Assembly (NCBI GenBank): GCA_009784025.1
Contig: WQVK01000005.1
Span: forward strand, 1 to 64,000
Origin: Defluviitaleaceae bacterium
GTDB taxonomy: Bacteria > Bacillota > Clostridia > Lachnospirales > WQUN01
Length of the DNA: 64,000 nt
Direction: 5' to 3'
A model generated the notes under the pieces. It was not told where the DNA came from and did no database searches. It saw only the letters and a program-made list of their open reading frames with translations. A program made the position numbers and the translations under genes. How positions within the stretch are numbered: the stretch's first letter is position 1; each line of letters begins with the position of its first letter. Below, piece by piece: positions 8,561 through 56,594 of the stretch.

Positions 8561-8676
8561 TATAGTGAAATAATTCGAAATTGGTCTCGCCTGTCGCGGC
8601 AAAAACGCCTGAGACGCCTTATCTCGGCGTTTCAGGCGCCGCTTGGGCGAGACCGTTTCTCATTTATTTCACTATA
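8561..8676 (+). repeat. Family A inverted repeat, copy 1
   Basis: Ends TATAGTGAAAT and ATTTCACTATA. Arms GGTCTCGCCTGTCGCGGC and GGGCGAGACC flank a core hairpin CGCCTTATCTCGGCG. Orientation with the AATTCGAAA arm first. It lies after the MetRS-like gene. Confidence 0.9.
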
Positions 8677-8681
8677 GTTTA

Positions 8682-8712
8682 AAAAAAAAGCCCGATTTTT
8701 CGGGTTTTTTTG
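8682..8712 (+). terminator. Rho-independent terminator
   Basis: AAAAAAGCCCGA, TTTT loop, TCGGGTTTTTTT. It probably ends the transcript of the MetRS-like gene. Confidence 0.8.
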
Positions 8713-8918: not shown

Positions 8919-8931
8919 TTTTTCTTAAATC

Positions 8932-9046
8932 TATAGTGAAATAAATGAGAAACGGTCTCACCCGAGCAGCGCCTAAAACGCCGAGATAAGGCGTTTCAGG
9001 CGTTTTTGCCGCGACAGGCGAGACCGATTTCGAATTATTTCATTAT
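8932..9046 (-). repeat. Family A inverted repeat, copy 2
   Basis: Inverse orientation to copy 1: TATAGTGAAATAAATGAGAA first, AATTATTTCATTAT last. It lies 3' of the minus-strand XRE gene ending at 9067. Confidence 0.9.
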
Positions 9047-9066: not shown

Positions 9067-9444
9067 TTACTCTGCGTCTAAATTAGCCAAAGCCTTCATG
9101 GTTTGTATTGCTACCTTTAGTTCTTTCAGTTCCAGTTTAGACAACAGCACTGCCGCTTTGGCGCGGTAAACGTCTTCTTTAGTTTTTTCTTTCTTGGTTT
9201 CTAGATCTGGCTCTACAAAAAGCTTGTCTATGGTAATTTTTAACAATGTAGAGATTTGCTCTAGCACGTACATGTTTGCGCCGCGTTCGCCTCGCTCTAT
9301 TAGGCCCAGGTGCGGAGTAGTTAGCACAATAGATTTGGCTAATTCGTCTCTGGATAGGCCTCTTGCCATTCTTTCTCTTTTAATGTTTGCGCCTATTATT
9401 TGGTTTAGCCGCCGCACATCGTTTTTCATTCTGCTTCTCGCCAT
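9067..9444 (-). CDS. XRE-family regulator, short form
   Basis: 125 residues. A helix-turn-helix of the XRE/Cro type occupies about residues 14-70 (IKRERMARGLSRDELAKSI... then HLGLIERGERGA at 45-56, then LEQISTLLKITIDKLF). A charged helical tail follows, ending in a segment (LELKELKVAIQTMKALANL) that resembles the tail of the 360-residue regulator on the other strand. It is probably a DNA-binding repressor or activator. SD AAGGA lies 10 bases before the ATG. It is transcribed divergently from the small ORF 9649-9717; a promoter on this strand (9484-9512) abuts a dyad. It has no sensor domain of its own. Confidence 0.85.
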   Translation of the reverse strand: MARSRMKNDVRRLNQIIGANIKRERMARGLSRDELAKSIVLTTPHLGLIERGERGANMYVLEQISTLLKITIDKLFVEPDLETKKEKTKEDVYRAKAAVLLSKLELKELKVAIQTMKALANLDAE

Positions 9445-9483
9445 GTTTTTTCAATCCTTTCGCGTATTTATTTCTTATGTCTT

Positions 9484-9512
9484 AATGTACGCTTTTTCGC
9501 GATGCATTGCAA
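9484..9512 (-). promoter_or_regulatory. Promoter of the short XRE gene
   Basis: On the minus strand: TTGCAA (9512-9507), 17-base spacer, TACATT (9489-9484), start point about 9477, 33 bases before the ATG at 9444. The -35 touches the dyad 9512-9526. Confidence 0.55.
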
Positions 9513-9526
9513 ATACTCACAGTATT
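9512..9526. promoter_or_regulatory. Operator-like dyad 1
   Basis: Perfect inverted repeat AATACT-CAC-AGTATT adjoining the -35 of the minus-strand promoter. Similar half-sites recur at 9557-9574. Confidence 0.6.
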
Positions 9527-9556
9527 CGACAAATCGCCAAATTGCGCTATTGTGAA

Positions 9557-9574
9557 AATACTCTCAGAGTTATT
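9557..9574. promoter_or_regulatory. Operator-like dyad 2
   Basis: AATACTCT-C-AGAGTTATT, an inverted repeat with one extra base. It ends 3 bases before the -35 (9578) of the small-ORF promoter. It shares the AATACT half-site with dyad 1. Confidence 0.6.
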
Positions 9575-9577
9575 TTG

Positions 9578-9605
9578 TTGACATTGTCCAAAATTATGCT
9601 ATAAT
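9578..9605 (+). promoter_or_regulatory. Strong promoter of the 22-codon ORF
   Basis: TTGACA (9578-9583), 16-base spacer, TATAAT (9600-9605): consensus sigma-A hexamers. The start point would be about 9612, some 37 bases before ATG 9649. Confidence 0.75.
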
Positions 9606-9648
9606 TTATATGTAGTAAAAAATAAAATATGGAAAAGGGGGATTTGCC

Positions 9649-9717
9649 ATGTTATTTTATTGTCTATGTGAGTTGTGCGATCTAGTGATTGGGCCGCGTT
9701 GGCCAATATACTGCTAA
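9649..9717 (+). CDS. 22-residue Cys-rich peptide, candidate signal or leader peptide
   Basis: Too short for routine gene calling. ATG 9649 follows AGGGGGA at 6-7 bases and is driven by a consensus promoter. The product starts MLFYCLCELC and ends GPRWPIYC, with Cys at 5, 7, 10 and 22 and a hydrophobic middle (LVIG). A hairpin with a T-run (9741-9767) lies between it and the downstream TPR/XRE regulator. The arrangement (strong promoter, SD, tiny ORF, terminator, then a regulator with a helical repeat domain) recalls peptide-pheromone genes next to Rgg/RRNPP receptors. No peptide family is recognised; an attenuator leader is an alternative. Confidence 0.5.
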   Translation: MLFYCLCELCDLVIGPRWPIYC

Positions 9718-9740
9718 TTTAGCGGTTATTCACGGGATCA

Positions 9741-9767
9741 AAAAGTCCGCATTTTATGCGGACTTTT
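9741..9767 (+). terminator. Terminator between peptide ORF and regulator
   Basis: AAAAGTCCGCAT, TTT loop, ATGCGGACTTTT. It would limit transcription from the peptide promoter into the regulator gene, so the regulator may be expressed mainly by read-through. Confidence 0.75.
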
Positions 9768-9794
9768 GCAATTATAATAGGGAGCTTGTACAAT

Positions 9795-10877
9795 ATGTGC
9801 AGTAGATATGATGCAATAGATGCGTTTTTCGCACTAAGAAGCAATTTAGACAAAAGAGATTTTGGTAAAGTAAAAAGGAAGCTTTTAATTTTTTTAGAAT
9901 CCAATCCACAAAACCCTCACATTAAAGATATATTGACGTTGCTTGAATTGTTTGAAAATGAACATACTCATAAAGAATTTGAAAATTCGCTAAAAATGGC
10001 TGATTCTATAATAGATAGGCTAGTAGCATTGAAAGAATGGCAATTTTACGATATTCGGATTTTAGCTTCTTCAGTTGGATACGCGGCAGATTACAAAACC
10101 TCCAACGCCCTTGCAGAAAGAGCCATAGCCGCCATAGAGCATTTTAAAGATGATAAAGATTATCAATATATAAATTTCGCCATCCACTTTAACATAGCAA
10201 CCCGTATAGTGCGGGCGCGTTATTTCGATATAGAGTCAGACGCCAACAAGGAAGAAGAAATAAAAGAGCAAGAGCGACTTTTCACTAAGCATTTTAACGC
10301 AGCCTCGGCCATAAGCAAGGCGGGCGGAATGTGGGTTTCGGAAACTGTTTTGTTAATCATGAAAGGTCTATTCAAAAAAGATTATAGTCTAGTAGACGAA
10401 AACCTAAAGCTTTTGCAAACTAAGGGTGCAAGAGATGCATGGAAGATGATGCGCAATATAGTTAACGAATACAATGTCCTGGTGGGTAGCAGCATAAGCG
10501 CAATACAGCTTAACGTGCTAATAGGCAGCAATATAAGAAAAATCCGCGAACATAAAGGCCTAAGCATGGACGATATCGCAGATATGACAGGCATGACCTC
10601 ATCCCATATAGGCCTGCTAGAGCGCGGGGACCGCGGCGCATCTGTACTAAACCTATACAAACTAGCCGACGCCCTGGGCGTAAGCTGGGAAATGATATTA
10701 AAGGGCAGTGGCCTTTCCAGCAAAGAAGATTTAGAGCTAGAGGTGCAGCGCCAAAGGCTAATGGCCATGATACCCTCCATGCAAAAGGACGATTTAATAG
10801 CGCTAAACGAAGTCGCCGAACGGCTTTGCCGCTACAGCTCGCAATTCAACAGAAAACCCTTACAGCGTTTAAACTAA
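9795..10877 (+). CDS. TPR-like sensor with C-terminal XRE domain
   Basis: 360 residues. ATG 9795 is preferred (GGGAG about 10 bases upstream); the in-frame ATG 9756 lies inside the terminator hairpin. Residues about 1-235 are all-helical with TPR-like pairs (for example FGKVKRKLLIFLESNPQNPHI, SNALAERAIAAIEHFKDD, FTKHFNAASAISKAGG). Residues about 240-300 are an XRE HTH with HIGLLERGDRGA, very close to HLGLIERGERGA of the short regulator, followed by a similar helical tail (MQKDDLIALNEVAERL). RRNPP-type peptide receptors have HTH first and TPR last; here the order is reversed. It may sense the peptide at 9649, but this is inference. Confidence 0.75.
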   Translation: MCSRYDAIDAFFALRSNLDKRDFGKVKRKLLIFLESNPQNPHIKDILTLLELFENEHTHKEFENSLKMADSIIDRLVALKEWQFYDIRILASSVGYAADYKTSNALAERAIAAIEHFKDDKDYQYINFAIHFNIATRIVRARYFDIESDANKEEEIKEQERLFTKHFNAASAISKAGGMWVSETVLLIMKGLFKKDYSLVDENLKLLQTKGARDAWKMMRNIVNEYNVLVGSSISAIQLNVLIGSNIRKIREHKGLSMDDIADMTGMTSSHIGLLERGDRGASVLNLYKLADALGVSWEMILKGSGLSSKEDLELEVQRQRLMAMIPSMQKDDLIALNEVAERLCRYSSQFNRKPLQRLN

Positions 10878-17749: not shown

Positions 17750-17759
17750 TGCTGATTCC

Positions 17760-17875
17760 TATAGTGAAATAAATGAGAAACGGTCTCGCCAAAGTGGCAC
17801 CTGAAACGCCGAGATAAGGCGTTTCAGGCGTTTTTGCCACGACAGGCGAGACAGATTTCGAATTATTTCACTATA
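17760..17875 (-). repeat. Family A inverted repeat, copy 4
   Basis: TATAGTGAAATAAATGAGAA ... GAATTATTTCACTATA. It fills the whole space between the stop of the 17360 gene and the first codon of the PhnB-like frame. Confidence 0.9.
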
Positions 17876-24052: not shown

Positions 24053-24165
24053 AGTGAAATAATTCGAAATCGGTCTCGCCTGTCGCGGCAAAAGCGCCTG
24101 GAACGCCTTATCTCGGCATTCCAGGTGCCGCTCGGGCAAGACCGTTTCTCATTTATTTCACTATA
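24052..24165 (+). repeat. Family A inverted repeat, copy 6
   Basis: TAGTGAAATAATTCGAAA ... TTTATTTCACTATA, joined to family C copy 1 at a shared CTAG. The 838-base gap 23762-24599 otherwise holds copy 7 and a GGTACC palindrome, with no gene seen. Confidence 0.88.
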
Positions 24166-24280
24166 GGCTATTTTATTCTGCTTTGGCTGGGTTGTCAATT
24201 TTATAGGGAAAAGTCTTGGATGGTATGGGATGAAGATGTGTTGTGATATATTTTCCGAAAAATGACATCTTTTCCGAAAA

Positions 24281-39267: not shown

Positions 39268-39383
39268 TATAGTGAAATGAATGAGAAACGGTCTCGCCCG
39301 AGCGGCACCTGAAACGCCGAGATAAGGGGTTTCAGGCGTTTTCGCCGCGACAGGCGATGCCGATTTCGAATTATTTCACTATA
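39268..39383 (-). repeat. Family A inverted repeat, copy 9
   Basis: TATAGTGAAATGAATGAGAA ... GAATTATTTCACTATA, 24 bases after the stop of the 38614 gene. Confidence 0.9.
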
Positions 39384-46006: not shown

Positions 46007-46122
46007 TATAGTGAAATAATTCGAAAACGGTCTCGCCTGTCGCGGCAAAAATGCCTGAAACGCCTTATCTTGGCGTTTCAGGTGCCGCTCGGGCGATACC
46101 GTTTCTCATTTATTTCACTATA
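46007..46122 (+). repeat. Family A inverted repeat, copy 10
   Basis: TATAGTGAAATAATTCGAAA ... TCATTTATTTCACTATA, 12 bases beyond the stop of the HD-GYP gene. Confidence 0.9.
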
Positions 46123-56451: not shown

Positions 56452-56564
56452 TAGCGAAATAATTCAAAATCGGTCTCGCCTGTCGCGGCAAAACGCCTAA
56501 AACGCCTTATCTCGGCGTTTTAGGTGCCGCTTGGGCGAGACCGTTTCTCATTTATTTCACTATA
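56452..56564 (+). repeat. Family A inverted repeat, copy 14
   Basis: TAGCGAAATAATTCAAAA ... TTTATTTCACTATA, in the murA-aroF divergent gap, ending two bases before the aroF -35. Confidence 0.88.
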
Positions 56565-56565
56565 T

Positions 56566-56594
56566 TTGTCACAACAAGCCGACTGTGATAAAAT
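56566..56594 (+). promoter_or_regulatory. Promoter of the aro operon
   Basis: TTGTCA (56566-56571), 17-base spacer, TAAAAT (56589-56594); 32 bases later comes ATG 56626 with AAAGGGG as SD. Confidence 0.7.

Follow-up and report, generated by a model that had tools for sequence, protein, structure and literature searches.

A tiny open reading frame (ORF) and the regulator gene that follows it, located in a window of 64,000 nucleotides (the whole stretch of DNA that was analyzed) from a Defluviitaleaceae bacterium, very likely form a pair of peptide signal and receptor that functions in the manner of Rgg/SHP, best read as an Rgg/SHP-like peptide-receptor system with a novel architecture. The regulator is built like the bacterial "quorum" peptide receptors with its two halves swapped, and its counterparts in related gut bacteria each adjoin a different tiny gene, which makes it probable that this is a peptide signaling system passed over by earlier searches. 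In these relatives the two genes are again found together, and the peptides are strongly diversified.

The sequence-only reading of this locus had described a promoter, a Shine-Dalgarno (SD) sequence, a 22-codon ORF, a terminator, a regulator gene, and a divergent XRE gene, and all six are confirmed in the sequence, the terminator as a hairpin. The sigma-70-type promoter (9578-9605, plus strand) has the form TTGACA-16-TATAAT, with TG before the -10 hexamer (an extended -10) and 12 of 12 matches. The SD sequence GGGGG (9637-9641, plus strand) lies 7 nt before the ATG at 9649 of the tiny ORF (9649-9717, plus strand), whose 22 codons, including four for Cys, specify the candidate peptide signal precursor MLFYCLCELCDLVIGPRWPIYC and which occupies the same position as the tiny ORFs of 49 other loci. 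The ORF is present as a single copy in the window, which represents one strain, and adjoins the receptor gene on the same strand. A hairpin at about 9740-9767 (plus strand) lies between the two genes and could serve as a leaky terminator: its stretch has a folding energy of -19 kcal/mol (z -2.66), and read-through is likely because the T-run is short. This hairpin was not picked up by the terminator scan of the window, and Rfam returned no match above the gathering score for the tiny ORF or its hairpin. Two candidate operator copies form a direct repeat upstream, TGCAAATACTCACAG at 9508-9522, which runs into AATACTCACAGTATT (9512-9526), and TGAAAATACTCTCAG at 9553-9567, just upstream of or touching the -35 region; chance is a possible source of this repeat, and neither copy stood out in a palindrome scan.

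The receptor-regulator (9795-10877, plus strand) is 360 amino acids in length, its start being placed at 9795 instead of the mechanical ORF start at 9756 on account of the SD sequence GGGAG. Pfam found nothing in this protein besides an HTH_3 domain at residues 247-299 (10533-10691, plus strand), near the C-terminus, and the TPR-like part therefore precedes the HTH. This N-terminal part is an Rgg/Rap-like sensor domain (residues 1 to ~236; 9795-10502, plus strand) with five predicted TPR-like helix pairs, followed by the C-terminal XRE HTH. The HTH is C-terminal in aligned family members as well; in canonical Rgg_C-type proteins of the same order (L112, L117, L116) it comes first by sequence. 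Stand-alone small XRE regulators, such as the one encoded at 9067-9444, are homologous to the receptor from about residue 238 onward over ~100 residues, but they have no sensor domain and no attached peptide gene. Because of this alignment, a sensor-XRE fusion would be a simple origin, and judging from sequence the receptor probably arose when an Rgg-like sensor was fused ahead of a small XRE regulator that was itself complete. In the receptors of L033 and L034 (both in genome G028), the HTH is followed by a domain resembling the RNA-polymerase alpha-CTD (Pfam PF03118), possibly one that touches promoter DNA.

The structure of the sensor was approached with two AlphaFold models, the first made from 60 family sequences (pLDDT 90.1) and the second of the sensor only from the distant member L042 (pLDDT 93.3). 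In a second-look structural aligner, Rgg144 ranked first for both the first model (Z 14.4, rmsd 3.8, 204 residues aligned) and the L042 model (Z 16.7, rmsd 4.0, 207 aligned). It was followed by other Rgg (Rgg3, Rgg2), Rap, NprR, and PlcR chains, with PrgX also among the leading entries, and families missing from these lists may match as well. The first clearly unrelated TPR protein appeared at rank 12 (Z 12.2) for the first model and at rank 16 (Z 13.9) for the L042 model. Helical repeat folds easily reach high Z, and unrelated TPR proteins score Z 12-14 against the sensor models. Plain Foldseek produced no match at E <= 0.001 for either model, and for the full protein it matched HTH domains, both of PDB entries and of viral models. 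The sensor assignment consequently rests on the second-look aligner and the sensor-only model, and the fold assignment on the ranking, the coverage, and independent Pfam matches to Rgg_C (PF21259). These matches were found in 11 of 60 members at E <= 0.01 (best E 9.9e-6), their best score being 25.6 bits against a curated cut-off of 27 and the window and family matches shown all lying below that cut-off; they map N-terminally in each of the four members for which positions were given. NCBIfam RGG_Cterm (TIGR01716) matched 3 of 60 members at E <= 0.01. Membership in Rgg by sequence at the curated cut-offs of PF21259 and TIGR01716 was not reached, hhalign found no significant similarity between the sensor and individual canonical Rgg-like proteins, and the sensor profile retrieved nothing meaningful from the PDB sequences. 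On the strength of the models, the sensor is predicted to have the TPR-like, right-handed superhelical peptide-binding fold of RRNPPA-type receptors. The earlier suggestion of an Rgg-, PlcR-, or NprR-type receptor stands for the sensor, which matches structures of Rgg, Rap, and PlcR best, but not for the whole protein: with its C-terminal HTH, it is not a standard member of any of the three.

Searches for relatives indicated a narrow distribution. The genome of origin, a 2.14-Mb assembly in 67 contigs that is 82% complete, contains the receptor once, and the 38 genomes of the same family that were searched yielded full-length relatives in G028 and G029 besides this genome. A profile of the N-terminal part (A2) matched 15 of 392 genomes of the order, spread over three families. 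With the sensor profile, the genome of origin was the only match in a class sample (1 of 391) and in a phylum sample (1 of 398), and single-protein scans of genome contigs and viral contigs with the window receptor found no relative. Over all loci, 67 distinct family members were collected, 19 of them in G029, which is the Defluviitaleaceae MAG Lab288P1bin22 from termite gut; a passage of one report gives Lab288 as the soil-feeding termite Labiotermes labralis (PMC7024585). The window receptor has its nearest counterparts, at up to 33% identity, in family f19 of this order. Seven of the 67 members were dropped, five as partial or broken (L051 twice, L070, L071, and L092) and two for want of a start (L036 and L090), leaving 60 usable.

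Conservation of a tiny peptide gene next to the TPR-like regulator is borne out by this family. A tiny ORF was accepted directly upstream, on the same strand, in 50 of the 60 usable members, which places a small propeptide gene next to the receptor as in RRNPPA systems; the ten others are L035, L037, L048, L052 (which has a minus-strand copy), L056, L085, L087, L088, L091, and L103. The 50 peptides were chosen by hand from listings, usually as the copy nearest the receptor (for L080, a farther one), and some of their SD sequences are weak. Under strict rules (ATG start, SD of at least 5, 15-40 amino acids, and an end no more than 200 nt ahead of the receptor start and no more than 25 nt past it), a tiny ORF preceded 30 of 57 family loci versus 2 of 79 control ORFs in the same DNA (Fisher P = 3e-12, a nominal value, since the family genes are related to each other). 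A loose test detected one before 42 of 57 family genes versus 15 of 79 control ORFs; L077, L099, and L103, which have short upstream DNA, were left out of both tests. Tandem homologous copies, two to four in number, occur at 15 of the 50 loci, and the gap between tiny ORF and receptor is 0-119 nt, so that the two genes look like one operon. Examples include MLYYYISFAMSLVITVINPLQNWLA (L033), MYYILISACCLISPFMNWLA (L034), and, at multicopy loci, MFLLNLFYFLGFIPIMPFADETDPEDW (L043, four variant copies), MRIEIKIRPLDANISEGWD (L093, three copies), and MKKTKPIITIPLPIMPFSDGGDPGGSTPPDNGG (L081, three copies).

Sequence change in these tiny ORFs follows the pattern of coding DNA. Across ten groups of mutually related copies, pS was 0.44 versus a pN of 0.16, and differences at codon positions 1, 2, and 3 numbered 128, 114, and 227, the third position accounting for 227 of 469. 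The comparison comprised eight tandem and two cross-locus groups, within which pairs are not independent, and it was made without the L081 group (GTG start) and without L039, L041, L054, L080, L097, and L098. Constraint was weak in the L101 group (pN/pS 1.10) and the L095 group (0.75). The sequence-only reading had asked that the ORF be conserved in frame in relatives, and at the level of the family it is. At L048 and L056 (G029), remnants of peptide genes broken by stops lie upstream of intact receptors, as if the receptor had outlived its own signal. A receptor subgroup in G028 (L035, L036, L037, and L051, the last split into two frames) has no obvious tiny ORF; the upstream regions of the first three have a repeat-like stretch in common, and these could be orphan or eavesdropping receptors.

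The sequence-only reading had also tied the peptide to the TPR-like part of the regulator, and sequence comparison agrees, in that peptide similarity tracks the TPR-like domain more than the HTH. Across the 50 loci, the partial correlation of peptide with sensor given HTH was 0.40, and that of peptide with HTH given sensor was 0.12; the corresponding values were 0.55 versus 0.02 for 16 G029 paralogues and 0.72 versus -0.11 for 15 f19 loci. With equal numbers of sensor and HTH columns the gap became smaller (0.36 versus 0.20 for the 50 loci, 0.46 versus 0.23 for G029, and 0.59 versus 0.10 for f19), with the sign kept in 97, 93, and 100% of 200 subsamples, respectively. After removal of pairs with at least 50% identity, the values were 0.27 versus 0.06, 0.27 versus 0.17, and 0.50 versus 0.03 for the same three sets. 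Such tracking would be expected if the sensor recognizes the peptide, although shared ancestry contributes to it.

In the proposed mechanism, the strong promoter, separate SD sequence, and leaky hairpin before the receptor gene would provide peptide in excess over receptor. The peptide would exit the cell or be cleaved, and its C-terminal part would re-enter via an oligopeptide permease. The returned peptide would then bind the concave face of the sensor and alter DNA binding by the C-terminal HTH, a domain that may act at least on the peptide's own promoter. One joint reading of the whole family is somewhat favored: a separate clade restricted to the order, in which an Rgg-type sensor stands before a complete XRE regulator, would have multiplied within individual gut bacteria into many private peptide channels, as in the termite-gut genome with 19 receptors, its peptides differing in chemistry and as many as four peptide genes standing in tandem beside one receptor. 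The peptide chemistries observed are Cys/Trp-rich, Pro-Phe-rich, basic, and polar. Some peptides may act without secretion, or may carry a Cys modification.

Extension of that thought to the system as a whole, with a peptide that is never secreted and serves as a cell-internal co-regulator reporting promoter activity or translation and not the presence of neighbors, is unlikely. Many of the companions are very short and not hydrophobic (e.g., MRIEIKIRPLDANISEGWD), the peptide of L094, MKGKKRGIIAVLLALVMVATLATPLVADEATPPVRARSLDPGDEPE, is the sole companion with a Sec-like signal, and the genes are arranged in the operon-like manner described above. On the other hand, by a simple window measure an SHP-like hydrophobic stretch is present in 31 of the 50 peptides; the remaining 19 have no strongly hydrophobic stretch, which makes a single common export route doubtful, and several of the peptides are polar. 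RRNPPA propeptides are characterized by a basic start and a hydrophobic export region. The genome of origin also encodes two SBP_bac_5 (OppA-type) proteins and M50 proteases, which would suit a secreted and re-imported signal, though such genes are widespread in controls.

The peptide of the window itself calls for separate consideration, given that its tiny ORF passes the loose test only and fails the strict one. By itself it could be a product of chance; it is lifted by the family and by similarity to the L079 peptide. The alignment score of the window and L079 peptides is 47 (mean of shuffles 20.0, sd 4.7; 0 of 2000 shuffles reached 47), and the two have in common an ML start, LC..D, IGP, W, and a final Cys. 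When 14 peptides were compared with that of the window, the sum over all 14 gave P = 0.002, and the likeness is limited to a subset, since five of the 14 had P > 0.3. Several f19 peptides are likewise rich in Cys and aromatic residues. It is quite improbable that the window ORF is accidental or decayed and its receptor an orphan in an otherwise genuine family: loose tiny ORFs do precede 15 of 79 control genes and companions have decayed or are missing elsewhere (L048, L056), but the 12/12 promoter lies directly upstream of this one, and its peptide also resembles those of L086 and L084.

Two further explanations retain little. The tiny ORFs might encode antimicrobial or membrane-active peptides that the regulator controls without sensing them, and they are indeed small, partly hydrophobic, tandem, and diversified; this is very unlikely, as the peptides follow the sensor domain, some are polar, and no recurrent immunity or transporter gene was found next to the peptide genes. 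An attenuator, in which the Cys codons of a leader ORF would sense cysteinyl-tRNA and the hairpin would control the regulator, scarcely merits belief: the window ORF has four Cys codons, and a hairpin separates it from the regulator, but a hairpin with a T run occupies the gap at just 7 of the 50 loci, Cys is absent from 20 of the 50 peptides, the family lacks the arrangement of amino-acid attenuators, whose leader ORF is rich in a single residue and precedes a conserved terminator, and tandem copies and sensor tracking are unexpected for a leader.

The signal-receptor pair shares several features with Rgg/SHP systems (Rgg2, Rgg3, and Rgg144 of streptococci), which include the best structural match to the modeled sensor, an XRE-type HTH, and a short upstream peptide gene without a classical signal peptide. 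It differs in that the HTH is C-terminal here and N-terminal there, in its tandem peptide genes, in the polar, Cys-rich, or Sec-type nature of some peptides, and in the restriction of the present family to one Clostridia-type order among the genomes searched. With the wider RRNPPA group (Rap, NprR, PlcR, PrgX, AimR, ComR, AloR) it has in common adjoining receptor and propeptide genes, a TPR-like receptor, and paralogous expansion; the 19 receptors of G029 may be set beside the more than 25 receptor-peptide pairs mentioned for some Paenibacillus in the abstract of PMC7425212. According to passages of two reports, the HTH of RRNPPA receptors is optional and, when present, N-terminal (PMC12700828, PMC9765709), and a passage of the latter confines several propeptide genes beside one receptor to Rap, calling their absence elsewhere unexplained (PMC9765709). 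In both respects the present systems depart from that description. An HTH N-terminal to the TPR region is not what the window receptor has, and the pair is for that reason not filed as an RRNPPA member. The published RRNPP_Detector census threw out clusters with an N-terminal TPR region, a step by which systems with the reversed order would have been filtered out. No description of C-terminal-HTH RRNPP-like receptors was found in the open-access papers searched. If the present reading is correct, RRNPPA-type peptide sensors can be moved as modules and work with a DNA-binding domain at either end, the published census removed such systems by design, and uncultured gut Clostridia use dense peptide signaling. 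The 50 candidate peptide-receptor pairs offer natural variants of both peptide and sensor for the study of how peptide specificity is encoded.

The neighbors of the pair are less constant. The divergent short XRE regulator (9067-9444, minus strand; 125 amino acids; HTH_3 E 1.6e-8) had been proposed to compete with the receptor for the same sites, a proposal that finds no support, and as a conserved partner of the receptor it was rejected. It is a common small regulator, with homologues in 21 of the 41 genomes searched (own included), many of which have no receptor; no homologue was found among the genes adjoining other family members; and a second XRE protein, encoded elsewhere in this genome, shares its helix signature, TTSHMGLIERGERGAT. 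Downstream of the receptor in the window is a LytR_cpsA_psr-like gene, and downstream genes vary between loci. A divergent, double SpoVT/AbrB- or MazE/MraZ-like protein of ~100 amino acids, with MraZ/MazE-like Pfam matches, recurs upstream of the peptide genes as nine proteins at eight loci in G029 and G088 (L043, L044, L048, L049, L053, L054, L095, and L097); it may stand in there for the XRE protein of the window. At L039, L044, L053, and L054 (G029), homologous TPR-type regulators with a canonical N-terminal HTH are found near the reversed receptors, and one of them has a sub-threshold RNPP_C match.

The region beyond the divergent gene contains a hairpin-forming, MITE/REP-like element of ~111-123 bp with ends TATAGTGAAATAA, present as inverted copies at 8566-8688 (plus strand) and 8919-9042 (minus strand). 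It has 49 matches in the genome of origin, ~40 of them at 88-96% identity, and further copies in the window are located at 17759-17870, 24055-24166, 39268-39378, 46012-46122, and 56456-56567.
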